Part shown: positions 7,653-23,727 of the stretch, one piece after another | How the letters are laid out: each line of letters opens with the position of its first letter | Numbering within the stretch: position 1 is the first letter of the stretch | NCBI RefSeq assembly: GCF_022809715.1 | Contig: NZ_CP094461.1 | Span: 434,001 to 498,000 of the forward strand | Origin: Burkholderia pyrrocinia | GTDB lineage: Bacteria; Pseudomonadota; Gammaproteobacteria; Burkholderiales; Burkholderiaceae | Direction of reading: 5' to 3' | Length of the DNA stretch: 64,000 bases | Notes under the pieces: generated by a model | Database searches by the model: none | The model's input: the letters and a program-made list of their open reading frames with translations, nothing else | What the model was told of the DNA's origin: nothing | Position numbers and translations under genes: made by a program

Positions 7653-9044
7653 CTACATCGCCGCACCGTAAAGATGATGTGCGTCGACCAATGCATCCGC
7701 GACGAGCTGCAAACCGTCCAGGCATTGCTCCTGGCTCTGCGGCCCGCCGAGGCAGATGCGGATCGCGGCCGGCGGGTCGCCGTCCGTCGAAAATGCCGCG
7801 CTTGCCACGGCGGCGACGCTTCGACTCCGCAGATGCTGCGCCAGATCGGGGGCAGTCCACAGGCACTCGCGCGGAATCGGCAACCAGAGATGGAAACCGT
7901 CGGGATGTGCATCGAAAGGCCATGCGCCGAGAATCCGCCTTGCAATCGCCTGCCGTGCATGCGCCTCCGATCGAATCGCGGCCAGCATCTCGCCTGCCGT
8001 GCCGTCGTTGACCCATTGCGTGGACAGCAGCATCGTGAACGGACTCGGCATCACGGTCGTGGCGCGCAATGCACCGGCGATACGCTGTGCTTCGCGCACC
8101 GTCGGCGCCAGCAGGTAAGCGATTCGCAGCCCGGCGCCGAGATTCTTCGACATGCCGGTCACATAGTAGGTCAGCTCGGGCGCCAGCAATGCCAATGGCG
8201 GCGGCGCGCTCTGCGGCAGCATCGCGTAGGCGTCGTCCTCGATGATGGGCACGTTGTAGCGCGTCGCGATATCGGCCAGCGCTTCGCGGCGTCTGAACGG
8301 TATCGTGAGCGTGCTCGGGTTCTGCAGGGTCGGGTTGCAGTACAGCGCGGCAGGCCGTCCGCTTCTGCAGAGCGATTCGAACGCATGCGGCAACGGTCCG
8401 TCGTCGTCCCGTGGCAGCGGCTGCAACTGCACGCCCAATTGTGACGCGATAGCCTTGATGCCGGGGTAAGCGAGCGAATCGAGGCAGATCGAATCGCCGC
8501 GGCGCGCAAGCCTGGAGATGAGCGCGACGAGGGCGCTGTGGATGCCCGGGCAGACCAGTACGGCGTCGCCGCTGCAGCCGGGCAGGCGATTGGCCAGCCA
8601 CGCGCGTCCGGCGGCGCGATCCGCCGGTGTGCCGCCGAAATCCTGGTATCGCATCAGCTGGTAAGGATCCGCTGCATCGAACAATGCCGCAGCCGATTGC
8701 TGCAGCCGCCTGGCCATCTCGGGCGGCTCGGGCGGCATGTTCATCGACATTTCGATGCTGCTCCCGCCCGACAGCGGAATCGTTCGCGTCGGGCCGCGCA
8801 CGAACGTGCCGCTTCCTGCTCGCGAATCGAGCAAGCCGCGTCGGCGAGCTTCAGCATAAGCGCGGGCCACCGTCGTGTAGTTCAGGTTCAGCGCACTGGC
8901 GAGATCGCGCAGCCCGGGCAGGCGGTCGCGCGGTTTAAGCCGGCCTGCAGTGAGATCTTCCTCGATGAGGTCGGGGATCAGCAGATACGCCGGTTTCCTG
9001 CTTTCCAACAGGCGCTTCGACCAATGATGGATGGCGTAATCCAT
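7653..9044 (-). CDS. MocR-type transcriptional regulator (GntR wHTH + aminotransferase fold)
   Basis: About 463-residue MocR/PdxR-type regulator. An N-terminal GntR winged helix (PAYLLIPDLIEEDLTAGRLK, LRDLASALNLNYTTVARAYA) spans about 15-80, followed by a class I aminotransferase-like domain. The PLP-binding lysine is in YVTGMSKNLGAG, and the cofactor-contacting IEDDAY motif is present. These proteins use PLP adducts of amino compounds as effectors. I chose the start MDYAIHHW at 9044, preceded by GGAAACAGG; in-frame starts at 9056 and 9068 are possible. It is divergent from the Nit1C operon and separated from it by 381 bp containing a 14-bp direct repeat, so it is the obvious candidate regulator of that operon (inference). 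Confidence 0.82.
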   Translation of the reverse strand: MDYAIHHWSKRLLESRKPAYLLIPDLIEEDLTAGRLKPRDRLPGLRDLASALNLNYTTVARAYAEARRRGLLDSRAGSGTFVRGPTRTIPLSGGSSIEMSMNMPPEPPEMARRLQQSAAALFDAADPYQLMRYQDFGGTPADRAAGRAWLANRLPGCSGDAVLVCPGIHSALVALISRLARRGDSICLDSLAYPGIKAIASQLGVQLQPLPRDDDGPLPHAFESLCRSGRPAALYCNPTLQNPSTLTIPFRRREALADIATRYNVPIIEDDAYAMLPQSAPPPLALLAPELTYYVTGMSKNLGAGLRIAYLLAPTVREAQRIAGALRATTVMPSPFTMLLSTQWVNDGTAGEMLAAIRSEAHARQAIARRILGAWPFDAHPDGFHLWLPIPRECLWTAPDLAQHLRSRSVAAVASAAFSTDGDPPAAIRICLGGPQSQEQCLDGLQLVADALVDAHHLYGAAM

Positions 9045-9135
9045 ACCTGTTTCCATTTGATGATTCATCAAAACGTTAGCATGGCGCATTAATCGACAAT
9101 ATATATATCGCCACTTTGAAGTCGGATGATTGCAT

Positions 9136-9329
9136 TGATCGCATCATGTATCGGATTGATGCATCGATGCACGCTGGATGCGCACCGGTTCACTCCTGCT
9201 GCATCAGTCAGGTGCGCCGTCTGGCCCGGTCAGGCCGGTTCCGGTCGGATCCGGATTGGGTCACGCAAGGATCGGACCGGCGGCAGCGGCATTTATCGAC
9301 TGAATGATCGGAGAGTGATCGCATCATGT
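9136..9329. repeat. 14-bp direct repeat in the MocR-Nit1C divergent region
   Basis: TGATCGCATCATGT occurs exactly at 9136-9149 and again at 9316-9329, both within the intergenic region (9045-9425). MocR regulators often bind direct repeats, so these are candidate operators. The 180-bp spacing is long and would require looping or two separate sites. Confidence 0.5.
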
Positions 9330-9425
9330 CTGTGCCTGGTTGGCATATGCGTTGCGTTAATGAGGTCGCCCGGATTCGAAAGCGTTCGGGATCATCACTC
9401 AACTCATTTTCAAACGGAGCGTGCC

Positions 9426-9908
9426 ATGCCCGCAGTGAATCAGCCTCTGCACAAGAAAGGAGATTTCCTCGTCGACTACGAGGAAAAAGTGTTCGAAGAC
9501 GTCAAGGCGGAACCGGGCGAGAAGGCGCTCGTGACGTTCCACACGGTTGCATTCGAAGGGTCGATCGGCTTCGTCAACCTGCTGCAGGCGACACGCCTGC
9601 AACGCAAAGGGTTCGAGACGTCGGTGCTGCTCTACGGCCCCGGTGTGACGCTCGGCCTGCAGCGCGGATTTCCGACGCTCGGCGACGAGGCGTTTCCCGG
9701 TCACCTGAACTTCAACAAGCAGCTCGTCAAGTTCATGGAAGAAGGCGGGAAAGTCTACGCGTGCCGCTTTGCGCTGCAGGCGCTTTACGGGCACGGCGAA
9801 GCGTCGCTGATCGAGGGCATTCGACCGATCAATCCGCTCGACGTGCTGGATATCCAGCTGCTTCACCGCAAGGAGAACGCGCTGGTCATCCACACCTGGA
9901 CCGTTTGA
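9426..9908 (+). CDS. MSMEG_0572/Sll0783 family nitrogen-starvation response protein
   Basis: 160-residue protein of the MSMEG_0572/Sll0783 family, the usual first gene of Nit1C (nitrilase 1) clusters. It has no enzyme motif I can name. Conserved-looking stretches include [20 protein letters not shown] and [20 protein letters not shown]. The fold is probably DsrE-like (my inference from the alternating beta/alpha pattern). The ATG at 9426 has a GGAG ribosome-binding site. It starts a run of ten same-strand genes ending at 19369. Nit1C clusters have been linked to nitrogen starvation and cyanide assimilation in other bacteria; the chemistry of this subunit is unknown. Confidence 0.85.
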
Positions 9909-9927
9909 TCGAATGACGGGTGCCATC

Positions 9928-10950
9928 ATGTCCGACAAACGCATCGTCCGGGCGGCGGCTGTCCAGATCGCCCCCGATCTGGAACGCGCCGGCGGTACGC
10001 TCGACAAGGTCTGTGCGGCGATCGACGAGGCCGCCGGCAAAGGTGTTCAGCTGATCGTCTTCCCTGAAACGTTCGTGCCGTACTACCCGTACTTCTCGTT
10101 TGTGCGGGCGCCGGTCGCATCCGGTGCCGATCACATGCGGCTCTACGAGCAGGCCGTGGCGGTGCCGGGCCCCGTGACGCATGCGGTTGCCGAGCGTGCG
10201 CGCCTGCACGGGATGGTGGTCGTGCTCGGCGTGAACGAGCGCGACCACGGCAGCCTGTACAACACGCAGCTGATCTTCGACGTCGACGGACGCCTCGCGG
10301 TGAAGCGCCGCAAGATCACGCCGACGTTTCACGAACGGATGATCTGGGGACAGGGAGACGCGGCCGGACTCAAGGTTGCGCAGACCGGTGTCGGGCGGGT
10401 CGGTGCGCTCGCGTGCTGGGAGCACTACAACCCGCTCGCCCGTTATGCGCTGATGACGCAGCACGAGGAAATTCATTGCAGTCAGTTTCCCGGTTCGCTG
10501 GTCGGCCCGATCTTCGCGGAACAGATCGAAGTCACGATCCGCCACCACGCGCTGGAGTCCGGGTGCTTTGTCGTCAATGCAACCGGCTGGCTGACGGACG
10601 CCCAGATCGAGTCGATCACGGGCGATCCGAATCTGCAGAAAGCCCTGCGTGGCGGATGCAATACCGCGATCGTGTCCCCGGAGGGTCAGCATCTGGCCGA
10701 GCCGCTGCGCGCCGGCGAAGGGATGGTGATCGCCGATCTGGACATGTCGCTGATCACCAAGCGCAAGCGAATGATGGATTCGGTCGGCCACTATGCGCGG
10801 CCGGAACTGCTGAGTCTTGCCATCAACGATCGGCCGGCGACGACGGTGACCCCGATGGGGAGCAGCGCGTCGGCCGCGCGCGACTTCGAGGGAAATTGCC
10901 ATGAGCGCGAACGCGAAACCGTCGGTGCAGAGCCGGCAATTGATGACTGA
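9928..10950 (+). CDS. Nitrilase of the Nit1C cluster (Sll0784 family)
   Basis: 340-residue carbon-nitrogen hydrolase that converts nitriles to carboxylic acid and ammonia. The Glu-Lys-Cys catalytic set is intact: E47 in [11 protein letters not shown]129 in [11 protein letters not shown] and C163 in ACWEHYN. Length and motifs match the Nit1 group. I chose MSDKRIVR at 9928 because family members begin shortly before the first beta strand; a start at 9913 would add five residues. The 3' end overlaps the radical SAM gene (by 50 bp if that gene starts at 10901). It is the only hydrolytic nitrogen-releasing enzyme in the operon, so the cluster probably channels a nitrile or cyanide-derived intermediate to it. 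Confidence 0.92.
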
Positions 10951-12013
10951 ACTGCAATCGGTCGGGCTGCGCCTCACGGATCCACGGGTTGGTGCCGCGA
11001 GCCGGCGCGGCGGCGCCGGGCCATCCGATCACAAGGCCGTGACGGTCGACGGTGTGACCATCATGGTGCCCGTGCACACGAGCACCGCGTGGGATTCGCC
11101 GTTCGTCGCGGCGGAACCTGATGCGGCGGGCGTCAGCCTGCTCTCGCGCGGCACCATCCCGATTGCGAGCATCAGCTTTCCGTCGAGCCCGCGCTTCTAC
11201 GCGTTGCAGACGCTGGAGGGCGTGCCGTACTCGCACATCGCGACGCTGCATGGCGCCGACGTGCTTGCGACCACGGTATTGCAGACTTGCATTCGCTACG
11301 AGAGCCGGCGCAAGACCTGCCAGTTCTGCTCGATCGGCCAGTCGCTTGCGGCCGGCCGCACGATCGCCCGCAAGACACCTGAACAACTCGCCGAGGTTGC
11401 GCGTGCGGCGGTCCTGCTCGACGGCGTCAAGCACATGGTGTTGACGACCGGTACACCGCCGACGCCGGATCGCGGTGCGCGCGTGCTGTGCGAAAGCGCG
11501 TTCGCGATCAGGGCGGCCGTCGATCTCCCGATCCAGGCGCAATGCGAACCGCCCGACGACGACGGCTGGTTCGACCGGATGAAGGCAAGCGGGATCGATA
11601 CGTTGGGCATGCATCTGGAAGCCGTGACGCCGGCCGTGCGCGAACGGATCATGCCGGGCAAGGCGAGCGTGTCGCTGTCCCGGTATATGGCGGCATTCCG
11701 CGCGGCCGTCGGCGTGTTCGGTCGCGGACAGGTCAGCACCTACATCCTGGCCGGGCTCGGCGACAGCGCGGCTGCGATTCTCGACATGTCGCGCGAACTG
11801 ATCGGGTTGGGCGTCTATCCGTTCGTCGTGCCGTTCGTTCCGATCAGCGGCACGCCGCTGGAGAGTCATCCTGCACCGTCGCCGGACTTCATGCGGGCGG
11901 TGCTCGAGCCGCTCGGTGCGATGCTGCGCGACGCCGGAATGCGCTCCGCCGACATCAAGGCAGGTTGCGGAAAGTGCGGCGCCTGCTCGTCGCTGTCGAC
12001 CTACGAGGTGTGA
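10901..12013 (+). CDS. MSMEG_0568 family radical SAM protein
   Basis: 370-residue radical SAM enzyme of the Nit1C cluster. The cluster-binding cysteines appear as C130, C140 and C143, a CX9CX2C spacing instead of the classical CX3CX2C. A second cysteine group (GCGKCGACS) sits at the extreme C-terminus and could bind an auxiliary iron-sulfur cluster. I chose the start at 10901 for its GAGGG ribosome-binding site, which gives a 50-bp overlap with the nitrilase gene. The alternative ATG at 10943 gives an 8-bp overlap (ATGACTGA) but has no good site. The substrate is unknown; by context it helps build or modify the molecule released as nitrogen by the nitrilase. Confidence 0.88.
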
Positions 12014-12015
12014 CC

Positions 12016-12576
12016 ATGTACTGCGCAGAGATGGGCCTGGCCGACAGCCGCGGCACGTATCGGCCTTCGGAGTACCGGATCAAATGGGCGGAGCTTCCGT
12101 GGGAAATCGACGAGGCGTACAAGCTGCGCCGGGCCGTATTCTGCGTCGAGCAGGGGATCTTCGTCGGCGACGATCGCGACGATATCGATCGTCGCGCGCA
12201 ATTGCTGGTCGCGGTCAGCTGCTGCGCAGGGTTGCCCGAGCAGGTGGTCGGCACGGTGCGGATTCATGAAACCGTCCCCGGAACCTGGATGGGTTCGCGG
12301 CTGGCGGTACACCCCGCGTTTCGCCGGCAGGGCAGGATCGGCTCGATGCTGATCGCGCTGGCCGTCAGCAGCGCGCATGCCGAAGGTTGCCGCACATTCG
12401 TCGCGCACGTGCAATCGCAGAACGTGCCGTTGTTTCGTCGGCTTCACTGGGATGCGCTCGGCGAGGAAACGTTGTTCGGCCGCCCTCACCAGCTGATGCA
12501 GGCGCAACTTGCGCACTATCCGCCGTGTGGCACGCCGTACGCGGGCTTCGTCCTGCGCTCGGAGGGGCGGCCATGA
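12016..12576 (+). CDS. MSMEG_0567 family GNAT N-acetyltransferase
   Basis: 186-residue GNAT-fold protein. The acetyl-CoA-binding region reads RLAVHPAFRRQGRIGSMLI (motif A, R/QxxGxG/A type). The N-terminal half contains the family's RRAVFCVEQGIF segment. In some organisms the GNAT domain is fused to the AIR-synthase-like domain encoded next; here the two are separate genes overlapping by ATGA at 12573-12576. It starts 2 bp after the radical SAM stop, so translation is probably coupled. The acceptor substrate is unknown. Confidence 0.87.
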   Translation: MYCAEMGLADSRGTYRPSEYRIKWAELPWEIDEAYKLRRAVFCVEQGIFVGDDRDDIDRRAQLLVAVSCCAGLPEQVVGTVRIHETVPGTWMGSRLAVHPAFRRQGRIGSMLIALAVSSAHAEGCRTFVAHVQSQNVPLFRRLHWDALGEETLFGRPHQLMQAQLAHYPPCGTPYAGFVLRSEGRP

Positions 12577-13559
12577 GTGTCGACGATCGTATCGCAACGC
12601 TGCGCGCAAGCCGGGGCTTCCAGCACAAGCACGACATTTCCGGCGTGGTTGCGTGGCTCGCAGCGGCATTGCCGAACGGCGAGCGGGATCTCGCTCAGGC
12701 CGTCGCGCTCGGTGACGACTGCGCGGCGATTCCGGACGCGGACGGCTACCTGTTGTTTGCGATCGAGGGCATGGTCGGCGATTTCGTCGAGTCGATGCCG
12801 TGGTTCGCCGGATACAGCGGCGTGATGGCGAATGTCAGCGACATCTACGCGATGGGTGGGCGGCCGATCGCCGTCGTCGATGCGTTGTGGAGCGACGGGA
12901 TCGACGCCGCGCAGCCGGTGCTCGCCGGGATGGCCGCGGCTGCGTCGGCGTACGGCGTACCGATCGTCGGCGGCCACAGCAACACGCGCAGCGCGCAGGG
13001 GCAGCTGGCCGTATCGATCCTGGGTCGGGCGCGTGCGCTGCTGTCGAGCTTCAGCGCGCGGCCGGGCGATCGCCTGATGATGGCGGTCGACCTGCGCGGC
13101 GCGTTCGAGGATCCGTATCCGTTCTGGAATGCGTCGGTCGGCGCGCCGCCGGCCCGGCTGCGCGGCGATCTCGAGATTCTGCCGGCACTGGCTGAAGACG
13201 GGCTGTGCGATGCCGCGAAGGATATCTCGATGGCGGGCGTGCTCGGTACGGCGTTGATGCTCGTCGAGTGCTCGCGCGTCGGTGCGCGCATCGACCTCGA
13301 CGCGATCCCGCGTCCGCCCGGCGTCGACTTCGATCGCTGGCTGACGGCCTTTCCGAGCTACGGATTCCTGATGGCGGCCCGGCCGGCGCATGTCGACACG
13401 ATCGTGGAGCGCTTCGCCGCGCGCGGGCTCGCGTGCGCGGTGATCGGCGATATCGACGCAACCCGTGAGGTCGTCGTCGAAGAGGCTGGCAAATCGGCGG
13501 TGCTGTGGGATTTCCGGATCGAGCCGTTTATTACCGGCGTCAGCGGAGGTGCCCGATGA
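12573..13559 (+). CDS. Sll0787 family AIR synthase-related protein
   Basis: 328-residue member of the AIR synthase/selenophosphate synthetase-like ATP-using superfamily. An early VALGDDCAAIPD motif (the usual GDDAA metal/phosphate site) is followed by NVSDIYAMGGRPIAVVDALW, the classical N-terminal dimer segment. The C-terminal half contains DISMAGVLGTALM. Related enzymes activate an amide or acid oxygen with ATP. Overlaps of 4 bp at both ends (ATGA with the GNAT gene, ATGA with the glycosyltransferase gene) show tight translational coupling in the Nit1C operon. Confidence 0.87.
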   Translation: MSVDDRIATLRASRGFQHKHDISGVVAWLAAALPNGERDLAQAVALGDDCAAIPDADGYLLFAIEGMVGDFVESMPWFAGYSGVMANVSDIYAMGGRPIAVVDALWSDGIDAAQPVLAGMAAAASAYGVPIVGGHSNTRSAQGQLAVSILGRARALLSSFSARPGDRLMMAVDLRGAFEDPYPFWNASVGAPPARLRGDLEILPALAEDGLCDAAKDISMAGVLGTALMLVECSRVGARIDLDAIPRPPGVDFDRWLTAFPSYGFLMAARPAHVDTIVERFAARGLACAVIGDIDATREVVVEEAGKSAVLWDFRIEPFITGVSGGAR

Positions 13560-14740
13560 GTCGCGACGCGTTGCGCATAGCGCTTCTTACCCACTCGGTC
13601 AATCCGCGTGGCGGTGTCGTGCACGCACTTGAACTGGCCAGTGCGCTGCACTTGGCGGGAAGCGACGTCACCGTATTTGCGCCGGCCGCGCCGGGTGAGG
13701 CGATGTTCCGCGATGTCCCGTGCCGCGTCGTGCTGGCACGCGTCGATGGCCGTCCGCGCGGCGTCGCGGAAATGGTGTCCGCGCGGATTGCCGCGATCAG
13801 GCGCGCATTGCTGGAGCACGATGCGGGCGGATTCGACGTCCTGCATGCGCAGGACAGCATCACGGGCAATGCACTGGCTGAACTGAAGCAGTCAGGCGCA
13901 ATCGACGGGTTCGTACGGACCGTGCATCACCTCGACGTATTCGACGACCCGCGGCTCGAACGCTGGCAGGAACGCGCGTGGCGAGAGGCGGACCAGGTGC
14001 TGTGCGTGAGCGCTGCCTGGGCGGTCACGATGCGCGAGAAGTTCGGAATCGACGCAGGCGTGGTGCCCAACGGCGTCGACGTCGCCCGGTTCGCTGGTGC
14101 GGACCATGGGGACATGCAGGCAGTGCGGCAGCGGTTCGGCCTGGGCAGCGGGCCGGTTGTCCTGGCGGTCGGCGGGATCGAGCAGCGAAAAAACTCGATC
14201 GCGTTGCTCGAGGCGTTCGCACGCCTGCGCAGCACGTTGCCCGGTGCACGGCTCGTGATCGGCGGCGGCGCGAGCCTGCTTGACCACGATGCGTACGCGC
14301 GCCGCTTCGTCGCGCGCGCCGCTGCGCTCGGGCTGGGGATCGGCGTCGACGAACCCGTCGTGACGACGGGGCCGCTCGACGACGCGGCGCTGGTCGCGCT
14401 GATGCACTGCGCCGATGTGGTGTCGATGGTGTCGATCCGCGAGGGATTCGGTCTGGTCGTGCTCGAGGGGCTCGCCTGCGGAAAGCCCGTCGTCGTGTCC
14501 GAAATCGAACCCTTTACCGAGTATCTGGACGAGCACGCGTGTGTGTGGGCCGATCCCGCCGATGTGGATTCGATCGCCGACGCGCTGCGCGATGCGCTCT
14601 CGGGACGGCGTGCTCCCGATTTCGCACATGCCGTCCCCGCATTGCTGAACCGCTTCACATGGGAAGCGAGTGCGCGCAAACATCTGGATATCTACCTGGA
14701 CAGGCTGGCGCAGCGTGCGCAAGCATCGTCCGTCGAATGA
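13556..14740 (+). CDS. MSMEG_0565 family glycosyltransferase (GT4-like)
   Basis: 394-residue GT-B retaining glycosyltransferase. The N-terminal Rossmann domain starts LRIALLTHSVNPRGGVVHAL, with the glycine-rich acceptor loop. The C-terminal donor domain has VVLAVGGIEQRKN and the E-x7-E motif region IREGFGLVVLEGLACGKPVV. It is a fixed member of Nit1C clusters, which implies that the pathway includes a sugar conjugate. The start at 13556 overlaps the upstream stop, and the next gene follows 9 bp after the end. Confidence 0.88.
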   Translation: MSRDALRIALLTHSVNPRGGVVHALELASALHLAGSDVTVFAPAAPGEAMFRDVPCRVVLARVDGRPRGVAEMVSARIAAIRRALLEHDAGGFDVLHAQDSITGNALAELKQSGAIDGFVRTVHHLDVFDDPRLERWQERAWREADQVLCVSAAWAVTMREKFGIDAGVVPNGVDVARFAGADHGDMQAVRQRFGLGSGPVVLAVGGIEQRKNSIALLEAFARLRSTLPGARLVIGGGASLLDHDAYARRFVARAAALGLGIGVDEPVVTTGPLDDAALVALMHCADVVSMVSIREGFGLVVLEGLACGKPVVVSEIEPFTEYLDEHACVWADPADVDSIADALRDALSGRRAPDFAHAVPALLNRFTWEASARKHLDIYLDRLAQRAQASSVE

Positions 14741-14749
14741 GGAGGAATC

Positions 14750-15034
14750 ATGCCGGTCATGCATTTTCGGGTTCGTTGGCCCGATCAGTCGGAAACCAAT
14801 TGCTATTCGCCTTCGACCGTCGTGTCGGAATTCTTCACGCCCGGCACGCGATACGCGCTCGACGACTTCGTCGAGCGAGCCCGACGCGCGCTGGGTATCG
14901 CGTCCGATCGCGTACGCGAGAAATACGGGTTCGCGTGCTCGGCCGCGATGGACGAGCTGGCACGGATCGAAGCACACGCGGAACGGTTTGCGCCGCAGGG
15001 CGACGCGACCGTGACCGTCATCGAACTCGTTTGA
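14750..15034 (+). CDS. MSMEG_0570 family small nitrogen-starvation response protein
   Basis: 94-residue protein of the MSMEG_0570 family, found only with Nit1C clusters as far as I know. It begins MPVMHFRVRWPDQSETNCYS and has a helical, charged middle region and a C-terminal TVIELV strand. No catalytic motif is visible. An excellent GGAGG ribosome-binding site precedes it. It may be a small structural or carrier subunit, but the function is unknown. Confidence 0.82.
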   Translation: MPVMHFRVRWPDQSETNCYSPSTVVSEFFTPGTRYALDDFVERARRALGIASDRVREKYGFACSAAMDELARIEAHAERFAPQGDATVTVIELV

Positions 15035-15090
15035 GGCGTCCGCCACGCAGGAATCCATCGTCGTCTTCAACACACATTCAGGACTGCATC

Positions 15091-16392
15091 ATGTCAAGCG
15101 AACCCGTTGTTTCATCCAGCCTCCCGGACATCGATTCCCGTCTCGGCGTAGCCGTCATCGGCGGCGGGCAGGCGGGATTGTCGATCAGCTACTACCTGAA
15201 GCAGGCAGGCATCGATCATCTCGTATTCGAAAAAGAGACCGTGACGCACACGTGGCGCAAGCAGCGCTGGGACGCGTTCTGTCTCGTGACGCCGAACTGG
15301 CAGTGTGCGCTGCCGGGCTATCCGTATCGCGGTGCCGATCCGCACGGCTTCATGACGAAGGACGAGATCGTCGACTATCTCGACGGATTCATCCGAAGCG
15401 TCGATGCACCTGTGCTGGAACACACCGCCGTCGAACGTGTGACGCGCGACGCGGACGGACGCTATCGCATCGCGACGTCGCGCGGCGCGTACACCGCGGA
15501 TCAGGTTGTCGTTGCATCCGGCGGCTACCATCGACCGATCGTGCCGCGGATGGCCGAGCGGCTTCCGGCAACGATCGTGCAGATCCAGTCGTCGGAATAC
15601 CGGAATCCAGCCGCGTTGCCGGACGGACCGGTTCTCGTGGTCGGATCGGGGCAGTCGGGCGCGCAGATCGCGGAAGACCTCCATCTCGCCGGGCGAAAGG
15701 TGTTTCTCGCGGTTGGCGATGCGCCTCGCTGTGCCCGTTTCTACCGGGGCAGGGACGTCGTCGACTGGCTGGCCGACATGCAGTACTACGACATGCCGGT
15801 CGATGCGCATCCGCTGCGCGAAGGCGTGCGCGACAACACCAACCACTATGTGACCGGCCGCGATGGCGGGCGCGATATCGATCTGCGCCGCTTTGCCGCC
15901 GAAGGGATGGAGCTGTATGGCCGGCTGGAGGATTTTGCCGACGGGCAGTTCCGATTCTCCGCGGATCTGTCGGCGCAGCTCGACAGCGCCGACGATACGT
16001 ACAACCGGATCAATGCCGGCATCGACGCCCATATCGAGAAGAACGGGATCGCGGCGCCGCCTGCGACGCGCTATGAACCCGTGTGGCGTCCGGCCGCCGA
16101 GCGCACGGCGCTCGATCTCGCGGCCAGCGGCATCGCATCGGTCGTCTGGTGCATCGGTTTCACCCCGGATTTCAGCTGGCTGGATGCACCGGTATTCAAC
16201 GGCCGCGGCTATCCCGCGCACCGGCGCGGCGTGACGCCGGTTCCGGGGCTCTACTTCGTCGGGCTGCCCTGGCTATACACGTGGGGTTCGGGGCGATTCT
16301 CCGGGGTTGCGCGCGATGCCGCCCATATCGTCGACCTGATCCAGGCCGAGATGACGGCCGCGCGGCGCTCGGCCGAAAGCGTGGCCGCCTGA
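15091..16392 (+). CDS. MSMEG_0569 family flavin-dependent oxidoreductase
   Basis: 433-residue flavoprotein of the flavin-monooxygenase-like type. The FAD-binding GxGxxG is AVIGGGQAGLSISYYL near residue 26, and a second dinucleotide motif (VVGSGQSGAQIAEDL) near residue 183 suggests NAD(P)H binding. The C-terminal half has VVWCIGFTPDFSWL, like other FMO-fold enzymes. It is the last canonical Nit1C gene and follows the 94-residue protein after 56 bp. Oxidation of an amine or aldoxime on the way to a nitrile would be a sensible role, but this is inference. Confidence 0.87.
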   Translation: MSSEPVVSSSLPDIDSRLGVAVIGGGQAGLSISYYLKQAGIDHLVFEKETVTHTWRKQRWDAFCLVTPNWQCALPGYPYRGADPHGFMTKDEIVDYLDGFIRSVDAPVLEHTAVERVTRDADGRYRIATSRGAYTADQVVVASGGYHRPIVPRMAERLPATIVQIQSSEYRNPAALPDGPVLVVGSGQSGAQIAEDLHLAGRKVFLAVGDAPRCARFYRGRDVVDWLADMQYYDMPVDAHPLREGVRDNTNHYVTGRDGGRDIDLRRFAAEGMELYGRLEDFADGQFRFSADLSAQLDSADDTYNRINAGIDAHIEKNGIAAPPATRYEPVWRPAAERTALDLAASGIASVVWCIGFTPDFSWLDAPVFNGRGYPAHRRGVTPVPGLYFVGLPWLYTWGSGRFSGVARDAAHIVDLIQAEMTAARRSAESVAA

Positions 16393-16397
16393 CGCCG

Positions 16398-17231
16398 ATG
16401 CATACCGCCATCCATCGCTATCGGGCCGGCATGCCGCAACTCGCGCACACGGGGCTCGCGGAAAACTGGCTGCTCAAGGAGTGCGGGCAGCGTCACTGGG
16501 ACGCGCTTGCCGCGCATAGCTGCCGCGATGTCCCCGAGTTCTTCGACGATGAGGGGCGGCGTGCCTATGCATCGTTCGTTGCGGTGCGCGTCGACATGAA
16601 CCGCCGTCATGCGATTCGCGAGAGCGACACATTCGCGCTTCATGTCGCGCTTCGCAGGGTCGGCCCGATTCGCCATTTCAGCGAGCAGCGGATCCGGTGC
16701 GGCGACGACGAAGTCGGTATCGTGCGGATGATGTCGGCGTTCGTCACGCGCGAACATGCCGGCAGCAACCGCTCGGTGGCGAAGGCGCGGATGAGCGGCG
16801 TCGACGGCCGCACCGGTCCGGTGCCTGCCGATGCGCTGTCGATGGCGGAACACGCGAAGAAGTTGCGGGTGCGGGATGCGTCGATCGTGCCGGCGCTCGC
16901 CGGCCTCGCAGAGGGCGATGGCGCAAGCGTCTCGTTTCTGCCGTGCCCGAACATGGATTTCAATGGTGCGGACCTGCTTTACTTCGCCAGCTTTCAGGCA
17001 TTCGTCGACCGCGCGGAATGGCAGCATTACCGCTTCGAGCACGCGCCGGTGTTGGCGGCGCGTCAACTGTACTTTCATGGGAATCTCGACATTGGCGATT
17101 CGTTGACCGTGCGTTTCGCGCGCGCACGATCCGATGCCGGTGGCCTGCTGCACTGGAGCGAAATCGTGCGCGACAGCGACGGGGCCAAGATTGCCGACGT
17201 GATCACGCAAAAGCGCTGGAGTCGGCCATGA
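16398..17231 (+). CDS. LnmK-like / Pnap_2097 family protein
   Basis: 277-residue protein resembling LnmK, the leinamycin enzyme that takes methylmalonyl-CoA and delivers propionyl to a carrier protein by combined acyl transfer and decarboxylation. It probably has a double hot-dog fold. The N-terminus MPQLAHTGLAENWLLKECGQ is typical, with two similar halves (SAFVTREHAGSNRS region; FLPCPNMDFNGADLLYF region). An internal start at 16431 is possible. It lies 5 bp after the Nit1C flavoprotein and overlaps the methylmalonyl-CoA mutase gene by ATGA. The mutase would make its substrate. No discrete acyl carrier protein lies nearby, so the acceptor is unclear. Family assignment is from memory of motifs. 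Confidence 0.68.
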   Translation: MHTAIHRYRAGMPQLAHTGLAENWLLKECGQRHWDALAAHSCRDVPEFFDDEGRRAYASFVAVRVDMNRRHAIRESDTFALHVALRRVGPIRHFSEQRIRCGDDEVGIVRMMSAFVTREHAGSNRSVAKARMSGVDGRTGPVPADALSMAEHAKKLRVRDASIVPALAGLAEGDGASVSFLPCPNMDFNGADLLYFASFQAFVDRAEWQHYRFEHAPVLAARQLYFHGNLDIGDSLTVRFARARSDAGGLLHWSEIVRDSDGAKIADVITQKRWSRP

Positions 17232-19369
17232 ACGAAGCCGCATTCATGGAGCCGGGCGCCGACGTGGAGAACGTCGCGCCGAACGGTCGAGACGCGCGCG
17301 CGGTGCCGCTGCGGAAACTCTACACGCAGAGCGATCTCGAAGGCATTGCCCATCTCGACGGCATGCCCGGCGCGTGGCCCTATGTGCGCGGGCCGTACGC
17401 GTCGATGTATACCGATCGCCCGTGGACGATCCGGCAATACACGGGGCACGCGGACGCAGCGGATTCCAATCTCGCGTTTCGCACGGCGCTCGAGCAGGGC
17501 GCGCAGGGACTGTCGGTGGCATTCGACCTGGCGACGCAGCGAGGCTACGACTCGGATTGCGCCGAGGCGCGGGCCGATGTCGGCGTGGCCGGCGTCGCGA
17601 TCGATACGGTCGAGGACATGGTGCGGCTGTTCGACGGCATTGCGCTCGACAGCACGACCGTGTCGATGACGATGAATGGCGCGGTTTTGCCGATCATGGC
17701 GGCGTTCATCGTGGCCGCCGAGGCGCAGGGCGTGCCGCCCGCCCGGATCGGCGGCACGATTCAAAACGACATCCTGAAGGAGTACATGGTCCGCAATACG
17801 TGGATCTTCGAGCCGGCGCCGTCGATGCGGATCGTCGCCGACGTGGCGTTGTGGCTGGCGCGGCATGCGCCGCGCTTCAATGCGCTGTCGGTGTCGGGAT
17901 ATCACTTCCAGGAAGCCGGTGCCGATGCCGTGCTCGAACTCGCGTTGACGCTGTCGAACGCGCGCGCGTACGTCGACACGCTGGCCGCACGCGGCATGCC
18001 TGCGGATGAGGCCTGCTCCCGTCTGAGCTTCTTCTTCGGCGTCGGCAGCGATTTCTATACGGAAATCGCCAAGCTGCGCGCGGCGCGTCTGCTGTGGGCG
18101 GAGATCGCACACGCGTGCGGCGCGCGTTCGCCCCGGGCGTGCGCACTGCGCATGCATTGCCAGACATCGGGATGGTCGTTGACGGCACAGGAGCCGGAAA
18201 ACAACATCGTTCGCGTGACGGCGCAGGCGATGGCTGCGGCGTTCGGCGGCACGCAGTCGCTGCACACGAATGCGTACGACGAAGCGCTTGCGCTGCCTTC
18301 CGCGGCGGCGGCACGCCTCGCACGCAACACGCAGCTGATTCTGCAGCATGAAACGGGGCTGTGCGACACGATCGATCCGTGGGCCGGCTCGTACATGATG
18401 GAGTCGCTGACGGACGGCATCGCGACACGCGTGCGCGCCGAGCTGGCTGCCATCGACGCGCAGGGCGGTGTGATCGCCGCGATCGAGTCCGGCTGGGTCA
18501 AGCGGCGCTTGCAGCGTGCCGCGGTCGCGACGCAGGCGCAGGTCGATTCCGGGCGCCGGACCGTGGTCGGCGTGAACCGTTTCGTCGCGGACGAACCGGC
18601 GGGCGAGCTCATGGTGCGCGAGACGGACGGCCGTCACGTGCGGGCCGTGCAGGCGCGGCGGATCGCAGCCGTCAAGGCCGCGCGCGATCCGGCGCGGGTG
18701 GCGACAGCGTTGCAGCGGCTGACCGACGCGGCGCGCGACGGCGCCGGAAACCTGCTCGCACTGGCGATCGACTGCATGCGGGCACGTGCGACCGTCGGGG
18801 AGTGTACTCGCGCGCTGGAATCGGTATGGCCGCGGCATGCCGCGGCGGTGGAAGCGGACGGTGAGGGCGTCTACGGCGAAAATCGGCGAGGCGACGCCGC
18901 CTGGCGGGCGGCGAAGGGCTGCGTCGACCGACTGGCGAAACGTGTGGGACGCAGGCCGCGCATCGTGATCGCCAAGCTCGGCCAGGATGGACACGACCGC
19001 GGAGCGGCCGTCGTCGCAGCCGCACTCGAGGACGCCGGATTCGATGTCGTCCGCCTGCCGCTGTTTCAGCAGCCGGCATCCGTGGCGGCTGCCGCACACG
19101 CGCATGGCGCCGATATCGTAGGCATTTCGTCGTTGTCAGGCGCTCACCTCGAGCTCGTCGAAGGGCTGCTCGACGAACCGGCATTGCATCGCGCCGGGAT
19201 TCCGGTGGTGTTGGGCGGAATCTTTCCGGCCGCGGATATTCGCCATCTGAAGGCGAAGGGCGTCGCGGCGGCTTTCGGGCCGGGCACACCGCTCGACGCG
19301 ATCGCGGAAGCGCTGTGCGCATGTATCGAGCGGGCTCGGTGTGCACGCCCGGCGGATGGCGAGAACTGA
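17228..19369 (+). CDS. Methylmalonyl-CoA mutase-like, fused catalytic and B12 domains
   Basis: 713-residue adenosylcobalamin mutase that interconverts succinyl-CoA and methylmalonyl-CoA. The catalytic barrel (to about 520) has GGTIQNDILKEYMVRNTWIF, SVSGYHFQEAGAD and MHCQTSGWSLTAQEPENNIV, all of the methylmalonyl rather than isobutyryl type. The C-terminal B12 domain has the axial-ligand motif GQDGHDRGA near 586 and the later VLGGIFPAAD loop. Single-chain architecture and length match bacterial MCM catalytic chains. The ATG overlaps the LnmK-like stop. Association with an LnmK-like protein suggests it feeds (R)-methylmalonyl-CoA into that enzyme. No MeaB/ArgK chaperone lies nearby, so a second, housekeeping MCM elsewhere is likely. 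Confidence 0.88.
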   Translation: MNEAAFMEPGADVENVAPNGRDARAVPLRKLYTQSDLEGIAHLDGMPGAWPYVRGPYASMYTDRPWTIRQYTGHADAADSNLAFRTALEQGAQGLSVAFDLATQRGYDSDCAEARADVGVAGVAIDTVEDMVRLFDGIALDSTTVSMTMNGAVLPIMAAFIVAAEAQGVPPARIGGTIQNDILKEYMVRNTWIFEPAPSMRIVADVALWLARHAPRFNALSVSGYHFQEAGADAVLELALTLSNARAYVDTLAARGMPADEACSRLSFFFGVGSDFYTEIAKLRAARLLWAEIAHACGARSPRACALRMHCQTSGWSLTAQEPENNIVRVTAQAMAAAFGGTQSLHTNAYDEALALPSAAAARLARNTQLILQHETGLCDTIDPWAGSYMMESLTDGIATRVRAELAAIDAQGGVIAAIESGWVKRRLQRAAVATQAQVDSGRRTVVGVNRFVADEPAGELMVRETDGRHVRAVQARRIAAVKAARDPARVATALQRLTDAARDGAGNLLALAIDCMRARATVGECTRALESVWPRHAAAVEADGEGVYGENRRGDAAWRAAKGCVDRLAKRVGRRPRIVIAKLGQDGHDRGAAVVAAALEDAGFDVVRLPLFQQPASVAAAAHAHGADIVGISSLSGAHLELVEGLLDEPALHRAGIPVVLGGIFPAADIRHLKAKGVAAAFGPGTPLDAIAEALCACIERARCARPADGEN

Positions 19370-19837
19370 CGCGGGTCGGCGGTCCGTCGAGCCTGGCTGG
19401 AGTCCGATGATATCCGCCGTAGGTCGAAGCTGACCGGGTAGCGCCATCGTGGCAACGTGTCGCAGGCCTGGCCGCGAAGCTGTCGATCTGAGTCAATACG
19501 AGTGTGTCAACTAATCCTCACGCAGCCTGGCATTCGCCGGGACCGCGGCCTAACCTGTAGGCCATCGAGATACCCACGCTAAAATGGGCCGAACGGTAAA
19601 AGCGCCGCTGGCTTCTAAAATCAACCGGCAACAACACTCGCCGGCCGAAGCAGAAGCTCTGCCGATGCCGACTAATCAGCCGAGAGAGGCGTTTGTGGCG
19701 ACGCTTTGCTGATAACATGCTGGCGAGGGAACTGCAGGAAGCCAGTATATTTGCCAATGCCTGAATTCTTCAAATTTCGACGAGGGCGAATAGGGCTGAA
19801 GGCATATCAAAAACACAAATTTGGAGAGAGAAGCAGC
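19370..19837. other. Intergenic stretch without a recognised gene
   Basis: 468 bp between the mutase gene and the sensor kinase gene. A 79-codon minus-strand ORF (19518-19757) reads like basic low-complexity sequence, and I recognise no family. The kinase promoter should lie in the AT-richer last 150 bp. Confidence 0.4.
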
Positions 19838-21160
19838 ATGCACGTTCAGCGCCGGAGCAATTCGCTGCAGCGCAGCATCCATAAAGCGTTTGAACCGGCA
19901 TTGCGCAATATGCAATATGTCGAGGGGCGACTGCGTCCGTTCGCGATCGTCGCCATTATCGGCTTTCCGCTCTATTACTACATCTGGCACGAAGTCTTTC
20001 CGCAACGCTACGAGAATCTATCGCTGCGGCTCATCGGATCGATACTCTTTCTGCCCGTCCTGTTTCATCACCGCTGGCCGGCTGCCGTGCGCGGGTTTCT
20101 GCCCTACTATTGGTACGCCATTATTCTCTATGCGCTACCATTTTTCTTCACGTTCATGTTGTTGAAAAATGATGGCTCGCAGGTTTGGGTCGAGAGCAGC
20201 CTGATCGCCGCGTTCGTGGCGGTGCTGCTGCTTGATTGGCTCATGCTGCTACTTAGCTTCGTCGCGGGCGTCAGCCTGGCCGTCGTCGCCTATTGCCTGA
20301 CCACGACGCCGGTTCATTTCGGCACGCCTTATTTCGCGCATCTCGCTATCCTTGCGTTCGCGATCCTCATCGGTGCCGTAGCCAACTACGACACGGCACG
20401 CATTCGATTCGAGCAGGAGCGCGCGATGGTCGCCACCGCAGGCAGCGTCGCGCATGAGCTTCGCACGCCGCTCCTGGCGATCCGTGCCGGCGCAGCGGGG
20501 CTGAGCCGTTTTTTGCCTCAGCTGCTCGCCAGCTACGATCTCGCGCAACGCAGCGGCCTTCACATTCCGAAAATCCGCTTCGCGCATCTGTCGTCGATGC
20601 ACGGCGTACTTGAACGGATCGAACAAGAGGCGTTGCTGTCGAATTCGGTGATCGACATGTTACTCGTCAATGCGCGTTTTACCGGCGGCTTCGATCAAAG
20701 GCCCGAGCGCTGCTCAATCGCGCGCTGCGTTGAAACGACCCTGCATCGCTACCCGTTTCGCGGAGTCGAGCGCGACCAAATTCGCTGTGATCTCGTTGAC
20801 GACTTCGAATTTCAAGGTTCGGAGACGCTGATAGTACACGTGCTGTTCAATCTCATCAAAAATGCGCTGCGCTCGTTGAGCGGCGTCGACAATGGCAACA
20901 TTTCGATTCTGCTCTATCGCTCGGAGCAGGCGAACCGTCTTGTGTTTCGCGATAACGGGTCGGGAATCGAGCCCGACGCGCTGCCTCACATCTTTACGCG
21001 TTTTTACACCTCTTCGGTGATCAACGATGATGTCTCGCTCGGTGCCGGGATCGGATTGGCCTTCTGTCGTGATGTTATGCGGGCAATCGGTGGAACGATC
21101 GAGTGCACTTCGACGAAGAACGTGTACACACAGTTTGTACTGACCTTCCCGTTACCCTGA
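19838..21160 (+). CDS. LqsS/CqsS-like sensor histidine kinase for alpha-hydroxyketones
   Basis: 440-residue membrane kinase. About six hydrophobic segments fill residues 32-182. The H-box is GSVAHELRTPL with H206, the N-box is FNLIKNALRSL, and the G-boxes are FRDNGSGIE and LGAGIGLAFC. Six short membrane helices followed directly by a kinase core match CqsS/LqsS/JqsS receptors, which detect alpha-hydroxyketone autoinducers and switch between kinase and phosphatase activity. The response-regulator ATG overlaps the stop by one base, and a CqsA-type synthase lies just beyond, so the ligand is probably that synthase's product. I chose the start at 19838 (GGAG upstream); 19757 is an alternative. 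Confidence 0.82.
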   Translation: MHVQRRSNSLQRSIHKAFEPALRNMQYVEGRLRPFAIVAIIGFPLYYYIWHEVFPQRYENLSLRLIGSILFLPVLFHHRWPAAVRGFLPYYWYAIILYALPFFFTFMLLKNDGSQVWVESSLIAAFVAVLLLDWLMLLLSFVAGVSLAVVAYCLTTTPVHFGTPYFAHLAILAFAILIGAVANYDTARIRFEQERAMVATAGSVAHELRTPLLAIRAGAAGLSRFLPQLLASYDLAQRSGLHIPKIRFAHLSSMHGVLERIEQEALLSNSVIDMLLVNARFTGGFDQRPERCSIARCVETTLHRYPFRGVERDQIRCDLVDDFEFQGSETLIVHVLFNLIKNALRSLSGVDNGNISILLYRSEQANRLVFRDNGSGIEPDALPHIFTRFYTSSVINDDVSLGAGIGLAFCRDVMRAIGGTIECTSTKNVYTQFVLTFPLP

Positions 21161-22185
21161 TGATCATGATCGAACCCTTCGCATTCCCGACCACGGTCGG
21201 CTTCATTGACGACAGTGCATCCTTTCTCGCCAATCTGAGCTTGCAGCTCGACACGCAATTGGCATTTCGCTTCTTCCATTCGGCAGAGCGTGCGATCAGC
21301 GTTATCAACGACGAAGCGATCCAGCCGCTCGCCGCCGAAGACTTCCTGTGCCGCTATCACGATCGGACGGAACAGAGCGACGCCCACGAGGTGATCGCAA
21401 TTCGGATCGACGCGATCCGACGCCAAATGCACAACGCGCGGCGATTCGAGCGGACGTCGGTTGTCGTCGTCGACTATGACATGCCGGGCATGAACGGCCT
21501 GGAAGTCTGCCGGCGCATCGCCAATCCGGCCATCAAGAAGATCATTCTTACCGGGAAGGCCAATGAACAGCTGGCCGTCAAGAGCTTCAACGAAGGCCTC
21601 ATTGACCGGTTCATTCGCAAACAGGATGTTCACGCCGTTTCCGTCCTCAATGAAGCGATCGACGAGCTGAAGCGCGCGTATCTGCACCAGACGCAACGCA
21701 CGGTCATCGAAGCGCTCGGCTTGTCCGAGTACCGGTTTCTGGTTGATCCGGCATTCGCCGCGAAGGCGACGGAAATCTTTCGCGAGCTCGGCATTGTCGA
21801 GCATTACCTGTCGACGCGCCCGACGGGGCTCGTGATGCTCGATAGTGCAGGCACGCCTTATCTGCTTCTCGTGCACACCGAGGATGCGCTGCGCGCGACC
21901 CGCGAAATCGCCGTCGAGCGTGGCGCGCCCGCCGCGTTTCTCGCCGAGCTCGACAGTGGCCATCGTGCGCCTTACTTTCCAGATTCGGAGGGGTACTATC
22001 CGATCGCGTGCACGTCGTGGCAGTCGTACATGCATTCCGCGACGGTCGTGCGAGGCCAGCAAGTCTATACGTGCAGCGTCATCAAGAATCCGCCTGGCCT
22101 CGAGCTGGGTTCCGTCGTTTCCTACGACGACTATCTCGACCGCCTTGATCGACATATAGATGAAAAAGGGGATTCACGGGCGTGA
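21160..22185 (+). CDS. LqsR/JqsR-like response regulator
   Basis: 341-residue response regulator with an N-terminal receiver domain. The acidic pair is in GFIDDSAS, the phospho-acceptor is D105 in VVVVDYDMPGMNG, and IILTGKAN is the switch-region threonine segment. About 80 residues separate the acidic pair from D105, a longer receiver insert than usual. The C-terminal half has no DNA-binding domain I recognise, as in Legionella LqsR, which has a similar length. It overlaps the kinase gene by one base (TGATG), so the two form a cognate pair. The stop codon lies inside a terminator hairpin shared with the convergent synthase gene. Confidence 0.8.
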   Translation: MIMIEPFAFPTTVGFIDDSASFLANLSLQLDTQLAFRFFHSAERAISVINDEAIQPLAAEDFLCRYHDRTEQSDAHEVIAIRIDAIRRQMHNARRFERTSVVVVDYDMPGMNGLEVCRRIANPAIKKIILTGKANEQLAVKSFNEGLIDRFIRKQDVHAVSVLNEAIDELKRAYLHQTQRTVIEALGLSEYRFLVDPAFAAKATEIFRELGIVEHYLSTRPTGLVMLDSAGTPYLLLVHTEDALRATREIAVERGAPAAFLAELDSGHRAPYFPDSEGYYPIACTSWQSYMHSATVVRGQQVYTCSVIKNPPGLELGSVVSYDDYLDRLDRHIDEKGDSRA

Positions 22186-22191
22186 ATCCCC
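22162..22191 (-). terminator. Terminator of the autoinducer synthase gene
   Basis: A perfect 10-bp stem (22168-22177 with 22182-22191) has a 4-nt loop and is followed on the minus strand by five T residues. It terminates the synthase transcript and overlaps the last codons and stop of the convergent response-regulator gene. Confidence 0.8.
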
Positions 22192-22227
22192 GGATCAATG
22201 TGATTGACGCCTAGGCGTTCATGTTGC

Positions 22228-23505
22228 TTACACTGCTTGCCTGATGGCCGCTATCCGGTCGATCGCGTGTGCGCTGGCGCGCATCCGCTGTGTTGACGGC
22301 CAGTCATCGAGCTCGACCTCATCGCGAATCGCTTCGCAGGCTTGGACGATCCGCCGCAACTCGTCGTGAGTAAGTGCTGCATGAACGGACAGCCGAATTA
22401 GCGCGCGGTTTTTCGCCGTGGCAGGCGCGCAGAAGACCGAGCCGAAAATGCCATGCGACTCGAGCGCGTCGCGTAGTTTGATCGTCCGTTGCTCCGTGCC
22501 GGACTCGAGCGCGATGATTTGAGTTTCACTCCCATTCAGGTTATAGCCGAGTCGCGTGAGTTGCTCGCGCAGGTACCGTGCATTTTCTGCGACCTGCGTG
22601 CGCCGCCACGCTTCCTTTTCGATCACGAGGATCGTGGCCTCCAAGGCGGCGGCTTCATGCGGAAGCAATGTCGAGCTGAAGATCGCCGGACGCGATTCGA
22701 ACTTGAAATACTCCTGGAATCGGCTCGAGCAACTGATCACACCCGCGCGGCCGGCGAACGCTTTTGCGAGACTCGCCGTGCGGAAGTGCACACGATCGGT
22801 CAGCCCCAACCCGACGACGAGCCCTGCGCCATCCGGCCCATGCGTGCCGAGCGAATGTGATTCGTCGACGACCAGCACGCAGCCGGCCGTTGTCGCCACG
22901 TCGACGACGTCGGCCAACGGGCAAACGCTGCCGTTCGTGCTGTAGATCGAGTCGACGACCACGATGCCAGGGCCATGACGACGGATTTGCCGGGCGAGAT
23001 GGTCGACATCGTTATGGGCAAAGCCGACCGCTTTCGCGCCTGAGCTTTGCACGCCTTCCCATAGCGACATATGGGCCATCATGTCGAGGTATACGGGCGT
23101 TTCAGCGGAAGCGATTGACTGAAGCAAGCCGGTATTCGCTGCATAGCCGGATTGGCAAAGAATGGCCGATTCCGAGCCCATGAAGCGGGCGAACCTGTCT
23201 TCGAGATCAAGCAGCGGACATGCACCGTGCAGAAATATGCCAGACATCAGCATCCCATTACCCTCGGATTTTATGCTTGCGCACATCGATTCGAGGATAT
23301 CGGGGTGTCGGGCGATCGACAAATAATCGTTGCTCGACAAATGCAACGCGTCGGGGCCAGGCAGACGTCCTCGCATAATATGGCCACCGTTCCAGTTTTC
23401 TTGAACGCGTTCGCGATAATAGCGTGTGACACGTTCGGCAACGAATGCCGGAAGCGAGACTTCGCCAACGTTCGACCGGGATTTCCCTTCATAATGTTCG
23501 TACAC
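22228..23505 (-). CDS. cqsA: CqsA/LqsA-type alpha-hydroxyketone autoinducer synthase
   Basis: 425-residue PLP enzyme of the alpha-oxoamine synthase family. It condenses an acyl-CoA with an amino substrate to give the precursor of an alpha-hydroxyketone signal. Motifs are LSSNDYLSIARHP, DESHSLGTHGPDGAGL (PLP-ring contacts) and SLAKAFAGRAGVI with the Schiff-base lysine at about 248. The DESHSLGTHG form is characteristic of CqsA/LqsA rather than BioF or Kbl. A GTG start at 23505 is chosen because AAGGAG sits 6 nt upstream; longer in-frame starts have no such site. It converges on its probable receptor pair. The chain length of the signal cannot be read from sequence. Confidence 0.88.
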   Translation of the reverse strand: MYEHYEGKSRSNVGEVSLPAFVAERVTRYYRERVQENWNGGHIMRGRLPGPDALHLSSNDYLSIARHPDILESMCASIKSEGNGMLMSGIFLHGACPLLDLEDRFARFMGSESAILCQSGYAANTGLLQSIASAETPVYLDMMAHMSLWEGVQSSGAKAVGFAHNDVDHLARQIRRHGPGIVVVDSIYSTNGSVCPLADVVDVATTAGCVLVVDESHSLGTHGPDGAGLVVGLGLTDRVHFRTASLAKAFAGRAGVISCSSRFQEYFKFESRPAIFSSTLLPHEAAALEATILVIEKEAWRRTQVAENARYLREQLTRLGYNLNGSETQIIALESGTEQRTIKLRDALESHGIFGSVFCAPATAKNRALIRLSVHAALTHDELRRIVQACEAIRDEVELDDWPSTQRMRASAHAIDRIAAIRQAV

Positions 23506-23511
23506 TTTAAG

Positions 23512-23517
23512 CTCCTT
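23512..23517 (-). promoter_or_regulatory. Ribosome-binding site fixing a GTG start
   Basis: A perfect AAGGAG on the minus strand ends 6 nt before the GTG at 23505. It sets the start of the autoinducer synthase downstream of several in-frame alternatives. Confidence 0.8.
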
Positions 23518-23727
23518 ATGGTCAACTGCACGGTTGTGCAGCGCTGCATAATGAGCCACCTGCTTGTTATAAAAAAAGTCGCGATACTCTTAACAGAGAG
23601 ATGCCGTCTATCCTTTTCGTATTGTAAAATTTATACCATTAAAGGATTTTTCATTTTTTTTGTAAGAAAGTGATGGGCAGGTAAATATCGTTCGCCGAGT
23701 ATCTGGAATATTTATGTAAGGCAGTCA

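Follow-up and report, generated by a model that had tools for sequence, protein, structure and literature searches.

A LnmK-like gene and a methylmalonyl-CoA mutase behind nitH suggest a propionyl supply for the Nit1C operon of Burkholderia pyrrocinia

Why does the Nit1C gene cluster of Burkholderia pyrrocinia continue past its last conserved gene, nitH, into genes for a LnmK-like protein and a B12-dependent methylmalonyl-CoA mutase? The window we analyzed is a 64,000-nt stretch of a genome that totals 7.69 Mb over three contigs, and all coordinates are positions within the window. Ten plus-strand genes, separated by short gaps or overlapping, run from 9426 to 19369. Our answer, to which we give a probability of roughly 0.55, is that the LnmK-like gene and the mutase form a module that supplies a C3-acyl (propionyl) group within a single Nit1C biosynthetic operon. 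Nit1C (nitBCDEFGH) was described in 2005 as seven genes; in the accessible text of that paper, between-species conservation is not seen outside the cluster and experimental evidence of a metabolic role is lacking (PMC1199592; here and below, papers are cited for their accessible text). Its known range includes cyanobacteria (PMC1199592) and in our data reaches Klebsiella plasmids. Later work in Pseudomonas, which also searched for genes co-occurring with Nit1C, connected the cluster with cyanide assimilation by way of cyanohydrins (PMC11049912). Among the literature matches listed, nothing joined Nit1C with LnmK, methylmalonyl or propionyl. As far as we could see, the distribution of the mutase by lineage, the absence of an epimerase and the alternative offered by PrpE, all reported here, are new.

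Gene families were assigned by curated NCBIfam cut-offs and domains by Pfam (Table 1). Each of the ten genes scored above the cut-off for the family named in a preliminary description of this DNA, and coordinates and scores confirmed the gene order given there, the 5 bp gap between nitH and the LnmK-like gene (16393-16397) and the ATGA overlap of the latter with the mutase gene (17228-17231). That description counted eight Nit1C families in order. All eight are present, but the original cluster has seven genes, and the glycosyltransferase is a betaproteobacterial insertion (PMC1199592). The seven core families are all above their cut-offs and in conserved order. With these and the glycosyltransferase the operon resembles known Nit1C clusters; it differs from them in the LnmK-like gene and the mutase behind nitH. 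A simple consensus scan of positions 8000-21000 found neither a promoter-like nor a terminator-like site around 16392-16398, and so no separate promoter and terminator ahead of the LnmK-like gene. The sole terminator-like site within 16398-19369 (17051-17067) lies inside that gene, and the scanned region held five such sites, fewer than the shuffle mean of 8.7. The mutase and LnmK-like genes are thus predicted to be part of a single co-transcribed Nit1C operon.

The LnmK-type gene also accompanies Nit1C in other genomes, strongly so among relatives, across the phylum and on plasmids. TIGR04099 was matched in nine of the 150 genomes around that of the window, which is included (seven above the cut-off, two partial). 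All nine genes lie directly behind MSMEG_0569, the nitH family, which is itself above its cut-off in 17 of the 150. The hypergeometric probability of this co-occurrence is 2.9e-10, a value that overstates independence because eight of the nine genomes belong to one genus. A draw of 349 genomes across the phylum had LnmK above the cut-off in six and MSMEG_0569 in 14; four of the six were Nit1C genomes, and in all four the LnmK-type gene lay behind MSMEG_0569, in one with a 1.5 kb stretch intervening. Two genomes with LnmK above the cut-off (G619 and G758) had no Nit1C gene within the 9.5 and 15 kb examined. Across a class draw of 369 genomes, LnmK was above the cut-off in the window alone. Pseudomonas fluorescens NCIMB 11764 also has a Pnap_2097 protein, Pnap_2097 being the family of the LnmK-like protein. 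In that strain nitA lies three genes downstream of nitH (PMC11049912), which would leave room for LnmK and a mutase.

On plasmids, Nit1C genes adjoin the LnmK-type gene in 16 of the 20 records examined out of 60; in one of the 16, from Methylocystis, the cluster is split. In the other four records (one Thalassospira, two Azospirillum and one Streptomyces) the gene has polyketide or fatty-acyl surroundings, with an annotated carrier protein in three. MSMEG_0572 is found in 515 plasmid records, 374 of them from Klebsiella, versus 60 with LnmK, so the LnmK form is a minority on plasmids; one Klebsiella record was examined. A mobile-element accident was considered and rejected, as order and spacing recur across many hosts. 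Several individual loci add detail. In Burkholderia anthina (L039) the whole ten-gene operon is plasmid-borne; the plasmid, of 234 kb, is typed conjugative, and a site-specific integrase lies about 5 kb downstream of the operon. In the Methylocystis iwaonis plasmid (L042), LnmK stands directly behind the AIR-synthase-like (AIRS) gene, with the glycosyltransferase and MSMEG_0572 about 4-7 kb further. Methylorubrum extorquens AM1 (L044, about 10755-11780) and G648 (L081, about 8298-9378) have a gene of about 340-360 codons between MSMEG_0569 and LnmK that, by the look of its sequence, reads like an outer-membrane protein. Outside Nit1C, in Thalassospira and Azospirillum (L043, L046 and L102), the Pnap_2097 family has fatty-acyl or polyketide genes around it and a carrier protein annotated among them.

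The Pnap_2097 family is not new, since both the family and its kinship with LnmK are already NCBI models. Compared by VIA-align, the LnmK-like protein has the double hot-dog fold of LnmK, with 22-23% identity over the model. Tyr57 is invariant in 28 of 28 sequences, and its column holds Phe in entry 4hzp; we take this column to be LnmK Tyr62, deliberately mutated in that entry. Asn189, likewise invariant in all 28, aligns with an Asn of LnmK. It may be the same loop asparagine that the MadB authors tied to decarboxylation in LnmK (PMC8666670). LnmK uses the (2R) isomer of its substrate, according to the title of Lohman and Shen 2020, cited in PMC8666670. The protein is therefore a predicted methylmalonyl acyltransferase/decarboxylase, sharing fold, Tyr column and loop Asn with LnmK and LrgK of leinamycin-type polyketide clusters. 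Those clusters differ in having an acyl carrier protein (LnmL), an HMG-CoA-synthase-like partner (LnmM) and a polyketide synthase (PMC9396626), none of which was recognized among the ten genes here.

The mutase encoded next to it has the domain order and active-site motifs of the housekeeping enzyme (single chain, as human MUT). The columns we take to be the carboxylate-binding Tyr and Arg and the active-site His hold Tyr, Arg and His in all 13 operon mutases, and the DxHxxG motif reads DGHDRG in 12 of the 13, that is, in all that reach it. It differs from the housekeeping type in being the only NF006944 match of its genome, where neither an epimerase nor MeaB is above the cut-off. Operon mutases fall on one side of a tree branch with weak bootstrap support (57/100), for which reason we do not claim them as a single clade.

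Whether the operon includes a mutase depends on the host. NF006944 was searched in 25 chosen genomes. All seven with an intact LnmK gene had exactly one match, the operon mutase (running off the contig end in G044), and none was found in the 12 other genomes searched from the same genus. Among these 12 are G005, G041 and G060, in which LnmK is reduced to open frames of 134, 124 and 75 residues, so LnmK decay and mutase absence go together there. The mutase adjoins LnmK in all six Burkholderiales plasmid loci versus none of ten from Alphaproteobacteria. Six other LnmK-matching genomes of the phylum draw all had an above-cut-off mutase elsewhere, on another contig or, in G287, about 46 kb away. 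These are six of nine such genomes and include G287, whose LnmK match is below the cut-off; three matches with E values of 6e-4 to 1e-3 were left out. Judged by model matches, the operon carries a mutase where the host has no other.

In which direction would such a mutase work? The mutase makes (2R)-methylmalonyl-CoA and propionyl-CoA carboxylase the (2S) isomer. The epimerase model TIGR03081 was above its cut-off in none of 11 Burkholderiales genomes versus five of five others. All 11 do match it weakly (at most 61 bits, cut-off 114.95), and these matches are probably other members of what we take to be a wider superfamily. The missing epimerase, the use of the (2R) isomer by LnmK and the stereochemistry of the two enzymes together point to synthesis from succinyl-CoA, not propionate breakdown. 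The route from succinyl-CoA through methylmalonyl-CoA to propionyl, as first proposed for these genes, is thus supported, as it is by the conserved catalytic residues of the LnmK-like protein and the mutase. It would be an unusual case of a B12-dependent mutase seemingly kept for biosynthesis only, in genomes without an above-cut-off epimerase.

The same evidence weakens a catabolic account, in which the nitrilase frees a carboxylic acid from a nitrile or hydroxynitrile and LnmK, the mutase and, elsewhere, the propionate-CoA ligase PrpE clear or assimilate the C3 acid during cyanide use. Nit1C is indeed tied to cyanide and nitrile assimilation (PMC11049912), and PrpE, by the function in its family name, activates a free acid. 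However, with no above-cut-off epimerase the mutase cannot receive the (2S) isomer made by propionyl-CoA carboxylase, and the reaction of a LnmK-type decarboxylase yields propionyl and does not consume it. We consider this account unlikely.

The supply reading gains from what occupies the position behind nitH in other loci. Five relatives have a gene there whose best-fitting family is PrpE; the window's operon has no such gene. In Robbsia (G078) a 669 aa gene starts 53 bp past the end of the MSMEG_0569 match (828 bits versus 576 for acetate ligase). Its congener G833 has the GNAT behind MSMEG_0569 and, 6 bp on, a PrpE-type gene (727 bits); in a third genome of the genus MSMEG_0569 was not matched at 1e-130. 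The Acetobacter pasteurianus locus has an AMP-binding protein 14 bp behind MSMEG_0569 (527 bits versus 449). The Komagataeibacter plasmid has a PrpE-type frame of 541 aa, outside the gene table, 15 bp behind MSMEG_0569 (500 versus 414), and the gene of the Klebsiella plasmid, shortened to 499 aa, overlaps MSMEG_0569 (443 versus 354). The five represent three lineages: the genus Robbsia, Acetobacteraceae (Acetobacter and Komagataeibacter) and Klebsiella.

We tallied 55 Nit1C loci, one per genome or record and the window included, by tblastn with Burkholderia, Robbsia, G833 and Klebsiella queries, a search that could miss distant relatives; L021 (the same locus as L029), L123, repeat short loci and non-Nit1C loci were left out. 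LnmK with mutase occurs in 13, LnmK alone in 14, a LnmK remnant in three, a PrpE-type gene in five and neither in 20; as many loci were picked for having LnmK, these shares are not frequencies. LnmK and a PrpE-type gene occur together in none of the 55. Two draws were not selected for LnmK: 17 relatives gave seven with LnmK and mutase, three remnants, one PrpE and six with neither, and the 14 Nit1C genomes of the phylum draw gave four with LnmK and ten with neither. Among the loci examined, no further recurrent gene was found behind nitH. The Rhodococcus locus has a second carbon-nitrogen hydrolase there, and Acinetobacter, Tistrella and two Caballeronia have nothing clear. On an Aquabacterium olei plasmid (L126, 20267-20989) the gene behind MSMEG_0569, of 240 aa, is annotated as an acyl-CoA/acyl-ACP dehydrogenase; it matches SfnB weakly and no Pfam family, and is possibly a third kind of acyl gene in this slot.

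We propose the following pathway, each reaction of which is predicted from gene content, as are the role of the GNAT (MSMEG_0567) as acceptor of the propionyl group and the propionylated product itself. Under nitrogen limitation a sigma54 promoter would drive the whole operon. The mutase would convert succinyl-CoA to (2R)-methylmalonyl-CoA, and the LnmK-like protein would load the methylmalonyl group, decarboxylate it and pass on a propionyl thioester, the recipient being either a housekeeping acyl carrier protein or a CoA or pantetheine thiol. The GNAT might then propionylate an amine of a molecule made by the nitrilase, the radical SAM enzyme, the AIRS-like enzyme and the flavoprotein, and the glycosyltransferase, where present, may decorate that molecule. 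Hosts with a housekeeping mutase, as the Alphaproteobacteria examined, would need the LnmK gene only, and other lineages would use a PrpE-type ligase acting on propionate instead. N-propionylation is proposed because mutase plus LnmK and PrpE share the propionyl thioester, and because the GNAT matches the Pfam family FeeM (N-acyl amino acid synthase; 30.5 bits, gathering threshold 27) and adjoins PrpE in G833. We put the odds that a Nit1C intermediate is N-propionylated at about even. Somewhat short of even, in our estimate, is the broader view that Nit1C is biosynthetic and not just for cyanide assimilation, with a product N-propionylated by the NitE GNAT, interchangeable, non-homologous and host-fitted supply genes in the nitH slot, and a Burkholderia mutase serving this pathway solely. 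Two unrelated enzyme routes meeting at a propionyl thioester in one slot yield a structural prediction, a C3 acyl group on the product, as well as a prediction of the donor specificity of the GNAT. Feeding labelled propionate or succinate would be a way to find the molecule.

The preliminary description is therefore upheld in part. Its propionyl-containing product, which the gene content suggests, is strengthened by the PrpE-type genes in the same slot elsewhere. Its wording of a carrier-bound propionyl group is not supported, since no carrier protein was recognized in the operon and PrpE would give propionyl-CoA; the carrier could be CoA or a housekeeping acyl carrier protein. The extension is also not a constant component of Nit1C: 20 of the 55 loci, many of them LnmK-selected, have neither module.

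Several observations weigh against a propionyl supply module. The link made in the accessible text of published work is with cyanide use and not with a product (PMC11049912). No carrier-protein model in NCBIfam or Pfam was matched by any of the ten operon proteins, MSMEG_0572 and MSMEG_0570 being without any Pfam match, and no ketosynthase or HMG-CoA-synthase-like gene was recognized among the ten, unlike in leinamycin-type clusters (PMC9396626). The five PrpE-type genes all score under the 955-bit equivalog cut-off, so propionate is the substrate of the best-fitting family, not a proven one; the Klebsiella gene is shortened and the Komagataeibacter frame ends at 541 aa. The MeaB-type G protein model TIGR00750 was above its cut-off in none of the 11 Burkholderiales genomes versus three of five others (78 of 101-134 candidates scored per Burkholderiales genome), which leaves upkeep of the mutase unexplained. 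Finally, the loci with neither module, six of 17 and ten of 14 in the unselected draws, imply that propionyl supply in cis is not needed everywhere.

The lack of a partner could also mean that methylmalonyl is the unit used, the LnmK-like protein transferring it intact without decarboxylation. The mutase motifs do predict a methylmalonyl-CoA product, and no carrier or polyketide synthase partner was recognized in the operon. The invariant loop Asn, on the other hand, fits the asparagine linked to LnmK decarboxylation (PMC8666670), and where a PrpE-type gene fills the slot, the unit supplied would be propionyl instead of methylmalonyl. We regard transfer of intact methylmalonyl as decidedly unlikely. 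Less probable again is a metabolite-repair or thioesterase-like role for the LnmK-like protein, with the mutase as a hitch-hiker and both placed in the operon for regulation only. That the two genes are chance neighbors, appended horizontally with no functional link, fits an operon found on plasmids in several hosts, one typed conjugative, but is highly improbable, since gene order is the same and spacing mostly tight in Burkholderiales and Alphaproteobacteria alike, and the mutase is carried where the host has no other.

Table 1. Genes of the Nit1C operon and features upstream of it, by position in the window
Feature	Position	Strand	Evidence
MocR-type regulator (GntR + aminotransferase domain), divergent	7653-9089	-	Pfam GntR, Aminotran_1_2
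Conserved repeat TGATTG...TGATCGCAT, copy 1	9127-9144	+	most columns invariant or at least 90% in 10 aligned upstream regions
Conserved repeat TGATCG...TGATCGCAT, copy 2	9305-9324	+	most columns invariant or at least 90% in 10 aligned upstream regions
Sigma54-type -24/-12 promoter (candidate) TGGCATATGCGTTGC	9341-9355	+	GG and GC, 10 bases between, kept in 10/10 upstream regions (window included)
MSMEG_0572/Sll0783 family (nitB)	9426-9908	+	TIGR04044 290.9 bits (cut-off 109.85); no Pfam match
Nit6803-type nitrilase (nitC)	9928-10950	+	TIGR04048 580.7 bits (cut-off 502.6)
MSMEG_0568 radical SAM protein (nitD)	10901-12013	+	TIGR04043 598.2 bits (cut-off 303.7)
MSMEG_0567 GNAT (nitE), proposed propionyltransferase	12016-12576	+	TIGR04045 236.2 bits (cut-off 68.45)
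sll0787 AIR-synthase-like (AIRS) protein (nitF)	12573-13559	+	TIGR04049 504.9 bits (cut-off 321.3)
MSMEG_0565 glycosyltransferase	13556-14740	+	TIGR04047 545.6 bits (cut-off 259.85)
MSMEG_0570 family (nitG)	14750-15034	+	TIGR04042 135.9 bits (cut-off 79.85); no Pfam match
MSMEG_0569 flavin-dependent oxidoreductase/flavoprotein (nitH)	15091-16392	+	TIGR04046 694.7 bits (cut-off 498.35)
Pnap_2097/LnmK-family acyltransferase/decarboxylase (predicted)	16398-17231	+	TIGR04099 351.7 bits (cut-off 125); LnmK model TIGR04098 304.7 bits (cut-off 100)
B12-dependent methylmalonyl-CoA mutase, single chain	17228-19369	+	NF006944 985.2 bits (cut-off 876); PF01642 + PF02310

The region upstream of nitB has a regulator gene and a sigma54-type element that the preliminary description left unmentioned. 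The divergent MocR-type regulator probably controls the operon, and a relative is found upstream of MSMEG_0572 in the loci of all 16 other Nit1C-positive relatives. The two conserved repeats are possibly copies of its operator. The sigma54-type element, named by what we take to be the -24/-12 consensus, is the single match to that pattern in the window, versus 0.21 expected by chance. It may drive the operon under nitrogen control, and its conservation accords with reports from elsewhere that Nit1C responds to nitrogen starvation.

Downstream of the mutase, 19838-23559 encodes a sensor kinase (best NCBIfam match LuxN, 99 bits, far below the cut-off), a response regulator and, on the minus strand at 22231-23559, an alpha-hydroxyketone-type quorum-sensing autoinducer synthase (602 bits, cut-off 428). 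We rejected these quorum-sensing genes as part of the operon, as no other Nit1C locus scored above a trace for them, often over about 6 kb of downstream sequence. Further on, genes of 273 and 276 aa (28240-29061 and 30558-31388), neither with a Pfam or NCBIfam match, flank an aminotransferase gene at 29183-30433.

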